A stretch of 64,000 nt of DNA, from positions 1 to 64,000 of the forward strand of contig NZ_LUUB01000063.1 in assembly GCF_001641635.1 (NCBI RefSeq), written 5' to 3'. The notes under the pieces were generated by a model that searched no databases, was not told the origin of the DNA, and saw nothing but the letters and a program-made list of their open reading frames with translations. Shown piece after piece: positions 1,297 to 59,617 of the stretch. The stretch comes from Bradyrhizobium centrolobii (GTDB taxonomy: Bacteria; Pseudomonadota; Alphaproteobacteria; Rhizobiales; Xanthobacteraceae). The position numbers were made by a program, and so were the translations under genes. How positions within the stretch are numbered: the first letter of the stretch is position 1; every line of letters begins with the position of its first letter.

Positions 1297-3701
1297 CCCC
1301 GCAAAGTGCCGCCGGTCTTCTTCGTCACCTCGGTGACGATCTTGGCGGCGACGGTCTCGATCTCCTGGTCGGTCAGGGTCTTTTCGCGCGGCTGGATCGT
1401 CACCGCGATCGCGATCGACTTCTTGCCGTCCTCGATGCCCTTGCCTTCATAGACGTCGAAGACATTCACACCGGTGATCAGCTTCTTGTCGACGCCCTGC
1501 GCGGTGCGCACGATGTCGCCCGCCTTCACGCCGCGATCGACGATGAAGGCGAAATCGCGCGAGACCGGCTGGAACGCCGACAGCTCGATCGCGGGTTTTG
1601 CGCGCGTGGCTCTCTTCTTCGCCTCGGGGATGCGGTCGAGGATCACCTCGAACACCATCACGGGGCCGTCGGCGCCAAGCGCTTCGAGCGCGCGCGGATG
1701 CATCTCGCCGAAATAGCCGAGCACGTTTTGCGGGCCCATCTGGATCGTGCCGGAGCGTCCGGGGTGCAGCCACGTAGCGCCGCCGGGGACGATTTGCAGC
1801 GCCTGCATCGGTGCGCCGGCCGCGGCCAGCACTGCCAGCGCATCGGCCTTGGCGTCGAACGCGTCGGCCATCGCTGAGCCCGACCAGTGCCGCCCGAGAC
1901 CTTCGGACGAGCCAAAGCCGCGGCGGACGCCGCTTGCCGCCATCAACTGGTCCTGCGGACGATCGCCCCTGAAGACCTGGCCGACCTCGAACAGCGCGAC
2001 ATCGCCAAAGCCGCGATCGGCATTGGCCTGCGCGGCCGCGATCAGGCCCGGCAGGAGGCTCGGCCGCATGTCGGAGAGATCGGCGGCGATCGGATTGGCC
2101 ACCTCGAGTTCGCGCTGGCCGCCGCCGAAGAGCTCGGCTGCCGGCTTTGTGATGAACGACCAGGTCACCGCCTCGACCATGCCGCGGCTTGCAGGCGCGC
2201 GCCTGGCGCGGCGCGTGCGGAGCTGAAGCGGCGTCAGCACGGATTTGCGCGCGTCCTCGCCGCGCTCGAACGGCGTCTCCGGCACCTTGTCGACGCCGAA
2301 GATGCGGACGATCTCCTCGACGATGTCGGCCTTGCCGTGCACGTCCGAGCGCCAGGACGGGACCGCGACCTTCACCACCGGACCTGCGCCCGCCATCATG
2401 AAACCGAGATGGTTGAGGATGCGCTTCATCTCCACCTGCGGCACCTCGATGCCGGACAGCCGCTTCACCTCGGTGATTGGGAACTCGATCACGCGGTCGT
2501 CGCCAAAGGCCTTGCCGACCACGATGGTCTCCGACGGCGCACCGCCGCACATCTCCATCACGAGCTTGGTCGCAAGCTCTAGCCCCGGCACCATGAAGGC
2601 CGGATCAACACCGCGCTCGAAACGGTAGCGCGCATCCGAATTGATGCCGAGCTTGCGGCCGGTCTGCGCGATGTTGATCTCGTTCCACAGCGCCGATTCG
2701 ATCAGCACGTCGGTGGTGTTCTCGTCGCAGCCCGAGGCCTCGCCGCCCATGATGCCGGCGAGCGATTCGACGCCATGGTCGTCGGCGATCACGCAGATCG
2801 CGGGATCGAGATTGTAGGTGCGGCCGTCGAGGGCGAGCAGCGTCTCGCCGTCGCGGGCACGCCGCACGACGAGGTTGCCCCTGACCTTCTTGGCGTCGAA
2901 CACGTGCAGCGGGCGCGCGCGGTCGAAGGTCATGAAGTTGGTGATGTCGACCAGTGCGTTGATCGGGCGAAGCCCGATCGCGGTCAGCCGCTTCTGCAGC
3001 CATTCCGGCGACGATCCGTTCTTCACGCCGCGCACAAGCCTGAGCGCGAAGCCCGGGCACAGCGTGGCGTCCTCGACCGTGACCTTCACGGGACAAGGGA
3101 ATTCGCCCTTCACGGCCTTGATGGTCGGGTCCTTGAACTTGCCCATGTCGGCCGTAGCGAGGTCGCGCGCGATGCCGTGCACGCCGGTGCAGTCCTGCCG
3201 GTTCGGCGTCAGGTTGATCTCGATCACGGGATCGCCGAGGCCGGCCCATTCGGCGTAAGCAGCGCCGATCGGCGCATCGGCCGGCAGCTCCATGATGCCG
3301 TCATGGTCGTTCGAGATCTGCAGTTCGGCCGCCGAGCACAGCATGCCGCGGCTCTCGACGCCGCGGATGGTGCCGATGCCGAGCGTGATGTCCTTGCCGG
3401 GAATGTAGGTGCCGGGCGGCGAGAACACGCTGACGAGACCGGTGCGCGCATTCGGCGCGCCGCAGACGACCTGCACGGGGGCCGCGCCGTTGCCGGTGTC
3501 GACCATGCAGACGCGCAGACGATCGGCATTCGGATGCTGCTCGGCGGAGATCACCTTCGCGATGGTGAACGGCTTCAGCGCCTTCGCCTTGTCCTCGATG
3601 TTCTCGACCTCGAGCCCGATCATGGTGAGCTTGTCGGCGAGCTTGTCCAGCGGCTCGTCGGTGTCGAGATGATCCTTCAGCCAGGAGAGGGTGAATTTCA
3701 T
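1293..3701 (-). CDS. pheT: Phenylalanyl-tRNA synthetase beta subunit
   Basis: This 802-residue protein has the full PheT domain order: an N-terminal tRNA-binding OB domain (about residues 40-150), the B3/B4 editing region, the B5 domain, the inactive synthetase-like core, and a C-terminal anticodon-binding FDX-ACB domain (last 95 residues, containing [13 protein letters not shown]). With PheS it forms the cytoplasmic alpha2beta2 enzyme that charges tRNA-Phe and edits mischarged Tyr. Its ATG overlaps the stop of the upstream DUF559 gene (ATGA) instead of following pheS directly as is usual. Length is normal for the family and no damage is seen. Confidence 0.98.
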
Positions 3702-4144
3702 GGCTGCTTTTTCTCCACGGGGACGGTCTGCTCCCTCTCCCGCTTGCGGGGGAGGGCTGGGGTGGGGGCTCTCTCCGAGACGGCGGTCGCGATTGTTTCG
3801 AGAACGCCGACGCGATTTGTCATCACATCATGATTGCTGAAGCGGAGGACCTTGAAGCCTCTCGCTTCAATGAGAGCGGAGCGACGCGCATCCGCACTCT
3901 CGCCCTCATCGGAGAAATGCTGACCGCCGTCGAGTTCAATAACGAGCTTCGCCGCGTGGCAGGCGAAATCGGCGACATAACGCTCGATCGGTACTTGGCG
4001 GCGGAAAATCACACCGTTCAATCGGCCGGCGCGCAGCTCCGACCACAGAATTTGCTCTGCATCGGTTGAATTGCGCCTGAGCGCGCGGGCATTGGCTCGG
4101 AGCTTGCCCGAGACTTTCCAGTCCGGATGTTCAGGATCGACCAT
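3698..4144 (-). CDS. DUF559 (VSR/PD-D/ExK-like) nuclease-family protein inserted between pheS and pheT
   Basis: The 148-residue product from the ATG at 4144 carries the DUF559 core: [13 protein letters not shown], then [11 protein letters not shown], a D-x-x-R segment, and [12 protein letters not shown]. The Asp of ADF and the Glu of IELDG are the likely acidic active-site residues of a VSR-like PD-(D/E)xK fold. The cellular role of the family is not established. The last 20 or so residues are translated REP repeat ([13 protein letters not shown]). The same frame is open upstream to a GTG at 4369 that overlaps the pheS stop (GTGA), so a 223-residue form that also translates the upstream repeats is possible. 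The stop overlaps the pheT ATG. The gene and its REP flanks form a 473-bp cassette within an otherwise conserved operon. Confidence 0.85.
3731..3773 (+). repeat. REP-like palindrome R1 (left end of the pheST DUF559 cassette)
   Basis: A C-rich/G-rich hairpin head (CTCCCTCTCCCGCTTGCGGG) is followed by a G-rich tail (GGCTGGGGTGGGGG). Head faces outward and tail inward toward the DUF559 gene. R2 at 4162-4203 is the inverted partner. The 3' end of the DUF559 frame runs through this repeat. Confidence 0.85.
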
Positions 4145-4161
4145 TGGCAACCCCAACGCTG

Positions 4162-4203
4162 AGACACCCTCACCCCAACCCTCCCCCGCAGGCGGGGGAG
4201 GGA
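4162..4203 (-). repeat. REP-like palindrome R2 (right end of the pheST DUF559 cassette)
   Basis: This is the inverted counterpart of R1: read on the minus strand, the palindromic head is followed by GGGTTGGGGTGAGGG pointing into the DUF559 gene. It lies 18 bp upstream of the DUF559 start codon. Confidence 0.85.
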
Positions 4204-4271
4204 GTCCGACCTGTCGGGCGGACAGAGGATACGTATCCATACGATGAATGCTACGCGCTCGCTCTATCCAT

Positions 4272-4317
4272 TCCCTCCCCCGCTTGCGGGGGAGGGGCAG
4301 GGAGAGGGCTGTCTCCG
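4272..4317 (+). repeat. REP-like palindrome R3
   Basis: This third copy of the same head lies between R2 and the end of pheS, in the same orientation as R1, with the tail GGCAGGGAGAGGGCTGTCTCC. It is head-to-head with R2 and has no partner further right, so the pheS side of the cassette carries two repeat units. Confidence 0.75.
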
Positions 4318-4365
4318 CAATGGGGCCGGAGAGAGTCGTCGCAGGCTCGTGTTTGAGAGCGAGCC

Positions 4366-8695: not shown

Positions 8696-8717
8696 AGTCG
8701 TTGCCCAGCACTCGATG

Positions 8718-8818
8718 TCATCGCCCGCGAAAGCGGGCGATCCAGTATTCCAGAGACGGTCATGTTTGACTGAGAGGCCGCGGCGTACTGGATGCCCCGG
8801 TCAAGCCGGGGCATGACA
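8718..8818. repeat. Composite palindromic repeat, family A copy 1
   Basis: Two hairpins (CGCCCGCGAAAGCGGGCG and GCCCCGGTCAAGCCGGGGC) are joined by ATCCAGTATTCC and its approximate inverse GTACTGGAT, making one large imperfect palindrome of about 100 bp. Copies lie at 10321-10419 and 59518-59617. Confidence 0.85.
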
Positions 8819-9325: not shown

Positions 9326-9427
9326 CGTTCCGGGGCGCGCCGATAGGCGCGAGCCCGGAATCCATTCACACGCAAACTTGAGGCCCGATGGATTCCGGGC
9401 TCGCGCTTCGCGCGCCCCGGAATGACG
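9326..9427. repeat. Palindromic repeat, family B copy 1
   Basis: GTTCCGGGGCGCGCC ... GGAATCC at the left is mirrored by GGATTCCGGGCTCGCGC ... GCCCCGGAATGAC at the right, forming a roughly 100-bp hairpin. A related copy is at 31288-31379. Confidence 0.8.
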
Positions 9428-9436
9428 GCGGAGAAA

Positions 9437-10231: not shown

Positions 10232-10320
10232 GATGCGCGACCTTGAAGGATCGCGCGGGGAAATCAAGGTGCTCGATCTTCTTGGTGAGGAGCGGCGCGC
10301 CTTTTCCTCGCTCTCCGCCG

Positions 10321-10419
10321 TCATCACCCGCGAAAGCGGGTGATCCAGTATTCCGGAGGCGGTGACGAATACGGATAAGCCGCGGCGTACTGGATGCCCC
10401 GCCTTCGCGGGGCATGACA
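10321..10419. repeat. Composite palindromic repeat, family A copy 2
   Basis: This copy matches the one at 8718-8818 in both hairpins and in the central ATCCAGTATTCC and GCGGCGTACTGGAT blocks; loops differ by compensated changes (CACCCGCGAAAGCGGGTG). Confidence 0.85.
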
Positions 10420-13277: not shown

Positions 13278-13300
13278 CCTCTCCCCGCTGGGGAGAGGTG
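13278..13300. repeat. Solitary REP-like head (R4)
   Basis: CCTCTCCCCGCTGGGGAGAG is the same hairpin head found at the trpBA DUF559 cassette, here without a paired second copy. It lies 53 bp after uppP and may double as an mRNA 3'-end structure. Confidence 0.7.
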
Positions 13301-15551: not shown

Positions 15552-15691
15552 CCCTCGCCCCGCTTGCGGGGAGAGGGTTGGGGTGAGGGGGACTCTCCCC
15601 GGGGACGGTGACAGTTGGACTCGCGGAGAGTCCCCCTCACCCGAATTCGAGCTTCGCTCGAATTCGACCTCTCCCCGCAAGCGGGGCGAGG
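15552..15691. repeat. Paired inverted REP-like elements without cargo (R5/R6)
   Basis: Two heads (CTCGCCCCGCTTGCGGGGAG and its inverse) face outward with tails GGGTGAGGGGGACTCTCC facing inward, in the geometry seen around both DUF559 genes. The right arm carries an extra hairpin (GAATTCGAGC/GCTCGAATTC) between head and tail. Only about 28 bp separate the arms. The pair lies between the convergent dprE2 and NDUFA9-like genes. Confidence 0.85.
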
Positions 15692-15703
15692 TAAGGGAAG
15701 ACG

Positions 15704-29388: not shown

Positions 29389-29850
29389 ATGCCGATTACC
29401 GATCTGGTCGCACCCGAGGCGATTCTCCCGGCATTGAAGGTCAACAGCAAGAAGCAGGCCTTGCAGGAACTCGCAGCCAAGGCTGCTGAGCTGACGGGGC
29501 AGAACGAGCGCGCGATCTTCGAAGTGCTGCTGCAGCGGGAAAAGCTCGGCACCACCGCGGTCGGTTACGGCGTCGCCATTCCGCACGGCAAGCTGCCCAA
29601 GCTGGAAAAGATTTTTGGCCTGTTCGCGCGCCTCGATCGCCCGATCGATTTCGAGGCAATGGACGGCCAGCCCGTCGATCTCGTCTTCCTGCTGCTCGCG
29701 CCCGAAGGCGCCGGCGCCGATCATCTCAAGGCGCTGGCACGCATCGCCCGCCTGCTGCGCGACCAGGACATCGCCAAGAAGCTCCGCGCCTCGCGCGATG
29801 CCCAGGCGATCTATTCGGTGCTGGCACTGCCGCCCGCGACTGCGGCGTAA
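29389..29850 (+). CDS. ptsN: Nitrogen-regulatory phosphotransferase EIIA-Ntr
   Basis: This 153-residue PTS EIIA type-2 domain has the phosphorylatable His66 in GVAIPHGKLP and the GADHLKALARIARLLRD helix. It accepts phosphate from NPr in the regulatory PTS-Ntr chain that ties nitrogen, carbon and potassium status together. It is the third gene of the rpoN-hpf-ptsN cluster, 213 bp after hpf, so a separate promoter is possible. A paired REP element follows its stop codon by 36 bp. Confidence 0.95.
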   Translation: MPITDLVAPEAILPALKVNSKKQALQELAAKAAELTGQNERAIFEVLLQREKLGTTAVGYGVAIPHGKLPKLEKIFGLFARLDRPIDFEAMDGQPVDLVFLLLAPEGAGADHLKALARIARLLRDQDIAKKLRASRDAQAIYSVLALPPATAA

Positions 29851-29886
29851 TTCGCCAGGTTCAATCGCTCCCGCGAAGACGGTGTG

Positions 29887-30010
29887 CTCCCTCTCCCGCT
29901 TGCGGGGGAGGGCTGGGGTGGGGGTGTCTCCGCTGGCGACACTCCCGACGTGGAGAGAGCCCTCACCCGCCGCGCTTTGCGCGTCGACCTCTCCCGCAAG
30001 CGGGAGAGGT
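29887..30010. repeat. Paired inverted REP-like elements without cargo (R7/R8)
   Basis: Left head CTCCCTCTCCCGCTTGCGGG with tail GGCTGGGGTGGGGGTGTCTC, right arm inverted with the head CTCTCCCGCAAGCGGGAGAG and a small extra hairpin (GCGCTTTGCGC) before its tail. Heads face outward and tails inward, as around the DUF559 genes; about 20 bp separate the arms. Confidence 0.85.
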
Positions 30011-30065
30011 TGAGCGAGCCCGCGGCCCAACTGATTCTACTTAAGGCCCACCGCGCCTTGGAAAT

Positions 30066-31287: not shown

Positions 31288-31379
31288 GTCGTTCCGGCGT
31301 GGCGCGAAGCGTCGAATCCGGAATCTCGCGCCGTAACCTGTGGATTCCGGGTTCGCCCTTCGGGCGCCCCGGAATGACC
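31288..31379. repeat. Palindromic repeat, family B copy 2
   Basis: CGTTCCGG...GAATCCGGAATC at the left and GGATTCCGGGTTCGCCCTTC...GCCCCGGAATGAC at the right match the copy at 9326-9427; the right arm is better conserved than the left. Confidence 0.75.
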
Positions 31380-31449
31380 GTGGAAGGCCACATCGGCTAC
31401 TTTGCATGGGGTTGTTTTCGATATTTTTAATCGCCCCTGACGGAAAGCC

Positions 31450-43441: not shown

Positions 43442-43527
43442 GTAGCCCGGATGGAGCGCAGCGAAATCCGGGGGCGTGCCGCGACCGAAAGACGTCCCGG
43501 ATTGCGCTACGCTCCATCCGGGCTACG
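43442..43527. repeat. Palindromic repeat, family C copy 1
   Basis: GTAGCCCGGATGGAGCGCAG is mirrored by CTACGCTCCATCCGGGCTAC about 45 bp later, forming a long hairpin. A second copy is at 52117-52201. Confidence 0.85.
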
Positions 43528-46347: not shown

Positions 46348-47565
<1,218 letters not shown>

Positions 47566-47586
47566 GGCAGAGGTCGCGCTTTCTTC

Positions 47587-47637
47587 ACCTCTCCCCGACG
47601 GGGAGAGGTCGGCTGCGAAGCAGCCGGGTGAGGGGCC
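47587..47637 (+). repeat. REP-like element R9, left end of the trpBA DUF559 cassette
   Basis: Head ACCTCTCCCCGACGGGGAG, a second hairpin CGGCTGCGAAGCAGCCG and the tail GGTGAGGGG, oriented head out and tail in. It begins 22 bases after the trpB stop. It matches the inverse of R10 at 47 of 49 positions. Confidence 0.9.
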
Positions 47638-47644
47638 TTTCCGC

Positions 47645-47989
47645 TCACTCGAACCTCAGTGAGGTTTCGATGAGCTCGAGCACGCCTTCAAGATTCTCGT
47701 ACACATCCGTGTTCGAGACTCGAAGGACGCGGAAGCCGCAGGCTTCAAGCACTTCGGTCCGCGCCTTGTCACGTTCGATCTCGGCCGAACTGGAGTGCGT
47801 CACGCCATCGACCTCGATGATCAGCTTTCCGTCGAGCGTCGCGAAATCGACGACATATCGGTCGACCGGGTGCTGGCGGCGAAGCTTCCAGCGGGCTAGC
47901 TGCCGGTTACGCAGCGCCTGCCAAAGCTTTGCTTCGGCGCTCGTTTGCGACTCGCGGAGCCTTCTCGCTCTGGACTTGAACCTCTCCAT
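47645..47989 (-). CDS. DUF559 (VSR/PD-D/ExK-like) nuclease-family protein, antisense between trpB and trpA
   Basis: The 114-residue product is a compact DUF559 domain: a basic N-terminal helix (SRARRLRESQTSAEAKLWQALRNRQ), LRRQHPVDRYVVDF, KLIIEVDGVTH, a D-K-A-R segment and GFRVLRVSNTDVYEN. The Asp of VDF and Glu of IEVDG are the likely active-site acids. It is related to, but well diverged from, the pheST copy. Its ATG directly abuts the tail of R10, whose GGGTGAGGGGG supplies the ribosome-binding site. It lies antisense to trpB/trpA. The frame is open upstream, but no homology extends past this ATG. Confidence 0.87.
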   Translation of the reverse strand: MERFKSRARRLRESQTSAEAKLWQALRNRQLARWKLRRQHPVDRYVVDFATLDGKLIIEVDGVTHSSSAEIERDKARTEVLEACGFRVLRVSNTDVYENLEGVLELIETSLRFE

Positions 47990-48039
47990 CCCCCTCACCC
48001 GGCTGCTTCGCAGCCGACCTCTCCCCGGAGGGGAGAGGT
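47990..48039 (-). repeat. REP-like element R10, right end of the trpBA DUF559 cassette
   Basis: This is the near-perfect inverse of R9, differing only in the head loop (TCC for GAC). Its outer end lies 22 bp before the trpA start codon, mirroring the spacing at trpB. Confidence 0.9.
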
Positions 48040-48061
48040 ATAACACAGCGACCGCGGAACC

Positions 48062-48898
48062 ATGACCACGCGTATCGACACCCGTTTTGCCGAGCTGAAG
48101 AAAGCGGGCCGCTCGGCCTTCGTCACCTTCCTGATGGCCGGCGATCCCGATCCGGCGACCTCGCTCGAGATCATCAAGGCGCTGCCGAAGGCGGGCGCCG
48201 ACGTGATCGAGATCGGCATGCCCTTCACCGACCCGATGGCCGACGGGCCATCGATCCAGGCCGCTGGCCTGCGTGCGCTGAAGGCCGGCATGACGCTGAA
48301 GAAGACGCTCGAGCTGGTGCGCGGCTTCCGCAAGGACGACAACGCGACGCCGATCGTGCTGATGGGCTACTACAACCCGATCTACATCTACGGCGTCGAC
48401 AAGTTCCTCGCCGATGCCAAGACCGCCGGCGTTGATGGTCTCATCATCGTCGACCTGCCGCCGGAGGAGGACGACGAACTCTGCCTGCCCGCGATGAAGG
48501 CCGGCCTCAACTTCATTCGCCTGGCGACTCCGACGACCGATGACAAGCGCCTGCCGGCCGTGCTCGCCAACACCTCGGGCTTCGTCTACTACGTCTCGAT
48601 CACCGGCATCACCGGCGCGGCGGCGGCCGACAGCAAGGCCGTCAGCGAGGCCGTTGCCCGCATCAAGCGGCACACAAAACTGCCGGTCTGCGTCGGCTTC
48701 GGCATCCGCACGCCGGAGGCTGCCCGCGCCATCGCCTCGCATGCCAACGGCGCCGTGGTCGGCACCGCGCTGGTCGATGCCCTCAAGCACAGCCTCGATG
48801 CCGACGGACGGGCAACCAGCAAAACCGTTAACGCCGTTGCCGAACTGACAGCATCCCTGGCCCACGGCGTCAGGGGCGCGCAGCAGGCGGCGGAATAG
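48062..48898 (+). CDS. trpA: Tryptophan synthase alpha chain
   Basis: The 278-residue TIM barrel cleaves indole-3-glycerol phosphate to indole and G3P. The catalytic Glu and Asp lie in [17 protein letters not shown] (about residues 49 and 60) and the phosphate site in [14 protein letters not shown]. Its ribosome-binding region is unremarkable and lies between the REP element and the ATG. Expression must read through the inserted cassette or start near it. Confidence 0.98.
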
Positions 48899-52116: not shown

Positions 52117-52201
52117 AAGCCCGGATGGCGCGAAGCGAAATCCGGGATTGTGCCACAAGCGATGAAAGGCCCCGGATTACGCTTCGCTCCATCGGGGCTA
52201 C
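52117..52201. repeat. Palindromic repeat, family C copy 2
   Basis: AGCCCGGATGGCGCGAAGCG is mirrored by CGCTTCGCTCCATCGGGGCT; it matches the copy after rpsA (43442-43527) in arms and orientation of loops. Confidence 0.8.
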
Positions 52202-52204
52202 AGG

Positions 52205-52237
52205 CAAAACAAAACGGCCGGCATGACGCCGGCCGTT
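52205..52237 (-). terminator. trxA terminator
   Basis: On the minus strand AACGGCCGGC/GCCGGCCGTT is followed by TTGTTTTG, about 26 bp after the trxA stop. Confidence 0.88.
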
Positions 52238-59492: not shown

Positions 59493-59517
59493 GATTCTGG
59501 CGCTTTTTTCCGCGCTG

Positions 59518-59617
59518 TCATCATCCGCGAAGGCGGATGATCCAGTATTCCAGAGACGGTAGAGATTCAATGGAGAAGCCGCGGCGTACCGGATGCCCCG
59601 CCTTCGCGGGGCATGAC
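59518..59617. repeat. Composite palindromic repeat, family A copy 3
   Basis: It matches copies at 8718-8818 and 10321-10419 in both hairpins and the central ATCCAGTATTCC block; stem changes are compensated (CATCCGCGAAGGCGGATG). Confidence 0.85.

Follow-up and report, generated by a model that had tools for sequence, protein, structure and literature searches.

The closest described counterparts of the repeats considered here are the REPIN-RAYT systems, in which paired palindromes are moved by a REP-associated tyrosine transposase (RAYT), and the families of tagged REPs. A 2013 survey, in the portion of its text available, notes CGTC REP families without a known enzyme along with further untagged families, and lists CCTC as a variant of the CGTC tag (PMC3733652). 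The protein that enters the present analysis, DUF559, has been described in other settings: the accessible part of a report on the Caulobacter DUF559 protein VsrA states that the SOS response requires VsrA when a cytosine methyltransferase is missing, and proposes a repair role (PMC12907096), and a partially available account of a Legionella evolution experiment identifies DUF559-containing segments as recombination hotspots (PMC12308824). A literature search, from which most subscription papers and bioRxiv were absent, found no publication that connects DUF559 with REPs or with hairpins at its flanks.

We analyzed a window of 64,000 nucleotides from Bradyrhizobium centrolobii (contig NZ_LUUB01000063.1, positions 1 to 64,000), in which an inverted pair of hairpins, R7 and R8, lies at 29887-30010 with the heads outside and the tails inside (Table 1). 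The first stem begins 38 bases past the stop codon of ptsN. The strand from 29880 to 30020 (141 nt) folds at -100.6 kcal/mol, as against -68.3 +/- 4.3 in 200 shuffles, none of which folds as low (z -7.5). Folded alone, the R8 arm is likewise unusual (z -4.5, with 0/200 shuffles as good); the R7 arm alone is not (z -1.5, with 17/200 shuffles as good). R7 is close in sequence to the simple arm found in the gene-holding element at 3731 (93% over 54 bases; family D4), and the linker and tail of R8 are nearly identical to those in the left arm of a further element of this genome (L004), so that the pair combines two arm types. At Rfam gathering scores the window yields two tRNAs and nothing else.

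Table 1. Features of the R7/R8 pair and of related loci in the 64,000-nt window
Feature	Position	Strand	Remarks
DUF559 nuclease (pheS/pheT element)	3698..4144	-	Pfam PF04480, 130.3 bits; frame continues through the arm at 3731-3768
Left arm, full-size element between pheS and pheT	3731..3768	+	Same type as R7
Right arm, pheS/pheT element	4167..4204	-	
Further arm beside the pheS/pheT element	4272..4308	+	
Single head without partner	13278..13298	.	
R5/R6, cargo-less asymmetric pair	15552..15692	.	GAATTCGAGC in its mini-hairpin
ptsN	29389..29850	+	Host gene just upstream, outside the element; TIGR01419 above cut-off
R7 head hairpin	29889..29912	+	10-bp stem, CTTG loop; CCCTCTCCCG-CTTG-CGGGGGAGGG
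R7 tail GGGGTGGGGG	29915..29924	+	Two-base linker before the tail; simple arm
Inner spacer between R7 and R8 tails	29925..29959	+	Loose likeness to spacers of some other cargo-less pairs
R8 tail	29960..29968	-	CCCTCACCC on the + strand = GGGTGAGGG
R8 mini-hairpin linker	29969..29986	-	
R8 head hairpin	29987..30010	-	10-bp stem
Left arm, full-size element between trpB and trpA	47587..47635	+	
DUF559 nuclease, 114 aa (trpB/trpA element)	47645..47989	-	Pfam PF04480, 123.4 bits
Right arm, trpB/trpA element	47991..48039	-	

The head pattern CCTCYCCC...GGGRGAGG retrieves 365 heads from the whole genome (10.1 Mb in 133 contigs), and the reversed pattern none. In 848 kb of this genome, which hold 49 heads, 17 neighboring pairs are less than 700 bp apart: 11 are arranged heads-out with both tails recognized, a further four have one tail unrecognized, and two are in the opposite orientation. 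The conservation of the tail was assessed on 31 pairs (62 arms), defined by their heads alone, from these 848 kb and ten syntenic 80-kb blocks of relatives. A tail with at most one mismatch from GGGTGAGGG is present on the inner side of 47/62 flanks and on the outer side of 6/62; among inner flanks that have been shuffled, the share is 2.6%. When GGGTGGGGG is also accepted as a tail, 30 arms have a long linker with a mini-hairpin, 22 a short linker, and 10 no recognized tail. At trpB/trpA and pheS/pheT about 20-55 more bases lie between the heads and the conserved genes; at these two sites and in the flanks of the paired heads, no outer motif stood out as strongly shared.

These counts bear on the original prediction, which saw in R7/R8 a second cargo-less pair of the asymmetric design of R5/R6 and suggested that the mini-hairpin varies, with head and tail kept, as would be expected if a protein recognized head and tail and the mini-hairpin were recognized by its shape alone. 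The design indeed recurs, R7 having the short linker and R8 the mini-hairpin as in the pair at 15552-15692, and the description as cargo-less is apt, since there are other pairs, with arms of this kind, that do carry a gene. Loss of tail conservation on aligning many copies, which would have spoken against the prediction, is not what the inner and outer flanks display. Within the pair itself the tail is kept exactly in R8 alone, the best 9-mer of the R7 tail being one base off GGGTGAGGG. The covariation analysis that had been suggested as a check was carried out on 22 distinct linkers, in which 104/110 cells of the five outer stem pairs are paired (G-U allowed); in 5000 shuffles, which ignore the relatedness of the linkers, the mean is 68 and the maximum 86. 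Because the observed pairing exceeds that of every shuffle, and stem positions 2 to 5 show several pair types, the mini-hairpin stem is maintained by compensatory change, a pattern that fits recognition by shape. The variability itself holds in part: the stem is nearly constant among the trpB/trpA copies, so that variation is greater between lineages than within one. The mini-hairpin word GGCTGCGAAGCAGCC occurs in the 47587/48039 pair, and linkers of 43 bases with a second hairpin nested in the mini-hairpin were noted at L123:3530-3736, L128:2800-2953, and L141:9419-9571.

The original prediction named no protein, and the evidence that follows points to a DUF559 nuclease as the partner of these arms. 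The two gene-holding pairs of the window, 47587-48039 and 3731-4204, have arms 410-425 bp apart and enclose DUF559 genes. A search of the genome returned five DUF559 matches, and the four stand-alone genes among them all lie between inverted arms with the tails facing the gene; the fifth, a divergent match inside a 403-aa frame (L007, G000:C78:244229-244516), has no flanking arms. Four DUF559 proteins score 122.7-130.3 bits against the PF04480 cut-off of 20.6. The DUF559 frames at 3698-4144 and L006:841-1848 run through the adjacent arm and beyond, so that translation may extend over the arm and give the protein a C-terminal tail. Pairs like R7/R8 are short and gene-less and have inverted arms like those of a gene-carrying element, as MITEs do.

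We observed the same arrangement at DUF559 loci far beyond this genus. For each DUF559 match, the left-hand 250 bp was aligned with the reverse-complemented right-hand 250 bp (score of at least 18) at the best 80 of at least 535 confirmed named loci and at 34 loci of this genus, including the genome studied here. Both sets had been ordered by similarity to the query or to the Pfam model and so are not a random sample; five loci with too-short flanks were dropped, leaving 109 DUF559 loci. The flanks are mutually inverted repeats at 81/109 loci, some of those from this genus being orthologous insertions and the loci thus not all independent, as against 0/479 shifted windows of the same loci; with the close relatives of the trp element (L008-L018) set aside, the figure is 70/98. 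By title, the flanked loci come from Pseudomonadota, Planctomycetota, Cyanobacteriota, Melainabacteria, Bacteroidota, Binatota, Omnitrophota, Desulfuromonadales, and Dehalococcoidales, several of them being metagenome bins that could be misassigned, and the arm sequences vary from lineage to lineage. At 28/109 loci no inverted-repeat flanks are found at 250 bp; five of these 28 reach a score of 22 at 900 bp (three with the present repeat type and two without), as do 3/143 shifted controls at that length.

Among the flanked loci, similarity between arms goes with similarity between nucleases. In 12 Bradyrhizobium lineages, obtained by dereplicating 35 flanked loci at less than 0.8 normalized protein similarity, the correlation is r = 0.54, a value reached in 0/1000 permutations, and it falls to 0.47 once pairs above 0.75 similarity are omitted. 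Over all 81 flanked loci it is 0.59, and 0.25 without similar pairs. Such a correlation would be expected if the arms are the nuclease's own sites, and would be harder to explain were DUF559 a casual passenger.

The association extends to whole genomes. With a strong DUF559 match defined as E <= 1e-20 and a head population as at least five heads, both cut-offs having been fixed after the tables had been seen, 31/45 genomes with strong DUF559 have such a population as against 6/146 without (p = 5e-19) among 191 alphaproteobacterial genomes, the present one excluded. In 183 genomes of a second class, that of a Nevskia genome which was itself excluded, the corresponding counts are 23/39 and 14/144 (p = 5e-10). 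Fewer than five heads of the pattern are present despite DUF559 in 14/45 and 16/39 genomes of the two classes, respectively. Conversely, six genomes of the first class have heads without strong DUF559, three of them with weak matches, and in the second class 14 genomes with 7-91 heads are without it (three having weaker or partial matches, one of which lies just under the cut-off); in the latter the gene may have been lost, the genome may be incomplete, or another enzyme may be used. Four genomes (G309, G346, G307, and G337) with 31-91 heads have no DUF559 among the matches listed and could represent orphan populations or the use of another enzyme. Sixteen genomes with a named locus that is flanked, or nearly so, contain 1 to 253 heads, as against 0 to 5 of the reversed pattern: an Omnitrophota bin has 253/5, a Planctomycetia bin 235/1, a Caulobacter sp. 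104/0, and Planctomycetales ZRK34 78/0. RGIG4720 (one head), Pedobacter (three heads), and Pelatocladus (32 heads, the rows listed being mostly other palindromes) were not counted as support.

The orphan populations, with up to 91 heads without strong DUF559, are what would be anticipated if the repeats owed their spread to a different enzyme, or to recombination and replication slippage, with DUF559 being a repair or defense gene that travels between them; the repair role proposed for the Caulobacter VsrA, in the part of that report available (PMC12907096), would suit such a hitch-hiker. We regard this as unlikely, given that DUF559 is flanked in several phyla and that, within the DUF559 loci to which the flank comparison was applied, the arms correlate with its sequence.

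Still less probable, in our estimate, is that these are ordinary REPINs moved by a RAYT, with DUF559 a passenger caught between two repeats. The many-copy, heads-out inverted pairs do look like REPINs as these are described in the sections available (PMC3733652, PMC3116915), and the genome has two Y1_Tnp genes. However, the flanks of these genes are of other kinds, GTAGCCCGGATG-type repeats for one gene and a long repeat for the other, and in the stretches read neither locus has a head of the present kind, so that no RAYT flanked by the same repeats was found. Furthermore, across the 191 alphaproteobacterial genomes Y1_Tnp is not associated with at least five heads (9/44 versus 28/147, p = 0.83), whereas the arms correlate with DUF559; all nine of those Y1_Tnp genomes with at least five heads also have strong DUF559, and no sampled genome with Y1_Tnp and without strong DUF559 has that many. 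RAYT as the mover is hence disfavored by both the other flanks at the two loci and the lack of association. As regards the loci themselves, the Y1_Tnp gene at L002:1190-1960 (G000:C79), which is RAYT-like, is flanked by GTAGCCCGGATGGAGCG-type repeats that are also present in the window at 43442-43526 and 52118-52219. The second gene, L001:1209-2150 (G000:C125), adjoins a partial duplication of its own start, and behind it the long repeat GGGAATTACGGTGACAGTGCACTTAATT is found, part of it recurring there in inverted orientation.

The elements are present or absent at fixed sites. At trpB/trpA, 30 loci from a search of 60 genomes comprise nine with the DUF559 element and 21 that are precisely empty, the two genes overlapping at GTGA in the latter with nothing inserted. 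A tree built from the trp sequence around the site requires nine changes to account for the filled loci, eight of them forced by well-supported branches, and this tree fits both repeated gain and repeated loss through recombination with empty alleles. The DUF559 copies have diverged about as much as trpA (0.17 versus 0.15), which leaves a recent sweep at this site unsupported. The trpA start is ATG in the filled loci and GTG in the empty ones. At pheS/pheT, one genome (G036) has an insertion at a stop/start overlap, and the same overlap is empty in three relatives. In the window, too, the DUF559 elements occupy stop/start overlaps of operon genes (47562-48065 and 3702-4365). At these two sites only, the insert is bounded on both sides by TGA, a 3-base overlap that may reflect a target duplication or a mere coding constraint of stop and start. 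Four cargo-less pairs (5, 14, 15, and 17) are absent in the 3 to 10 relatives compared for each, some other relatives holding single heads at these sites, and the ends of such pairs are blurred by variable intergenic DNA. R7/R8 is present in its own genome only among 30 ptsN loci, for each of which 330 bases after the gene were read; two others (G055 and G058) have related, degenerate pairs after ptsN, perhaps from one older insertion. Hence, that R7/R8 is a host regulatory feature of ptsN, a 3' hairpin for termination or mRNA stability as its strong fold and its position 38 bases after the stop might suggest, is highly improbable, the pair being unconserved among these loci and, by eye, followed by a T run after neither arm, even if a side effect on the ptsN mRNA is possible.

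The DUF559 protein itself appears to be maintained. The nine trp copies code for intact 114-aa proteins whose differences per codon position are 0.099/0.049/0.361, and because of this distribution we take them to show a sign of purifying selection. Across 48 selected proteins ten residues never vary (E19, W23, Q39, D48, E59, D61, G62, H65, R77, and R90). Sequence comparison links the family to 3hrl (E = 3.4e-33) and, weakly, to the homing endonuclease I-Bth0305I (3r3p, E = 0.0056), and an AlphaFold2 model (mean pLDDT 88) matches 3hrl with Z 17.1, I-Bth0305I with Z 12.4, and Vsr with Z 10.4. The conserved residues and the modeled fold point to a Vsr/EDxHD nuclease of the PD-(D/E)XK fold, and make DNA cleavage likely. 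In a tree of the 48 nucleases the phyla are interleaved, but no more than 11/45 inner branches are well supported, so that transfer between phyla is unproved.

We posit, as a reading that is fairly probable, that R7/R8, about 120 bp long, is a non-autonomous, REPIN- or MITE-like offshoot of a mobile element driven by DUF559 and carrying DUF559 as its sole gene. The full element consists of an arm, DUF559, and the inverted arm; in each arm the head hairpin lies outermost and a tail of the GGGTGAGGG type innermost, and the linker between them is either short or forms a mini-hairpin. The nuclease most likely reads its own arms by their head and tail, the mini-hairpin probably serving only as a structural spacer of fixed shape. 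It would then nick or cut DNA at an arm or at an empty target, and host repair would copy into new sites the element itself or, with the nuclease acting in trans, a pair without a gene, either by homing-like cut-and-repair or by hairpin-guided single-strand transfer. The association of DUF559 with the arms is strong; binding, cutting, and movement we infer from it. More tentatively, with somewhat less than even confidence, we propose a hitherto unrecognized class of mobile elements in several phyla, in which one Vsr-like DUF559 gene between hairpin arms spreads untagged palindromic repeats, in large numbers, by acting in trans. Palindromic repeats that lack a known enzyme occur in many bacterial genomes; the association connects a single widespread design of this sort (CCTCTCCC...GGGAGAGG and the tail GGGTGAGGG) with a single small family of nucleases, offers DUF559 a candidate natural substrate, and bears on the reading of DUF559 proteins such as the Caulobacter VsrA. 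If the proposal is true, a lone nuclease behaves as a mobile element in a new way, and some REPs owe their spread to a nuclease resembling homing endonucleases rather than to a tyrosine transposase.

The repeats can be set against several described families. The window also has repeats of other kinds: a GTCATC...GATCCAGTA block in three copies (8713-8816, 10316-10418, and 59513-59617) resembles CGTC-type REPs, and TGGATTCCGGG...CCCCGGAATGAC palindromes (9389-9432 and 31341-31384) are like the published Br-REP2. Br-REP1 and Br-REP2 of B. japonicum are, like the present heads, intergenic palindromes in 3' regions of Bradyrhizobium, but their consensus sequences, as given in the available part of their description, differ from these heads (PMC5082802). 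The Caulobacter CIR elements (about 110 bp) similarly have two inverted-repeat arms and a linker in an alphaproteobacterium, but, compared by description only and from partial text, are characterized by GANTC sites (PMC2229807). The GTAG- and CGTC-tagged REPs are likewise families of short palindromes in which dimers are common, and are reported in Bradyrhizobium in the survey text available (PMC3733652). An unpaired GTAG or CGTC at the stem end is absent in the heads read; CCTC is here inside the stem, and the heads do not have the A-T pairs with which CGTC stems begin according to the accessible text (PMC3733652). With the EDxHD/Vsr-fold homing endonuclease I-Bth0305I, DUF559 shares the fold, by sequence and by model, and the presence or absence at fixed sites; unlike it, DUF559 is about 115 aa long, does not have the additional DNA-binding region that the available part of a report attributes to I-Bth0305I (PMC3943268), is flanked by terminal hairpins, and has gene-less derivatives. 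The likeness to the REPIN-RAYT systems lies in the short palindromes, the inverted heads-out pairs of REP hairpins in many copies, the many gene-less ones included, and the full version with one gene between the arms. The differences are that the gene here is a predicted DUF559 nuclease of the PD-(D/E)XK/Vsr fold and not a Y1 (HUH) enzyme, and that the arms have, with no GTAG tag, an inner GGGTGAGGG tail and a covarying mini-hairpin.
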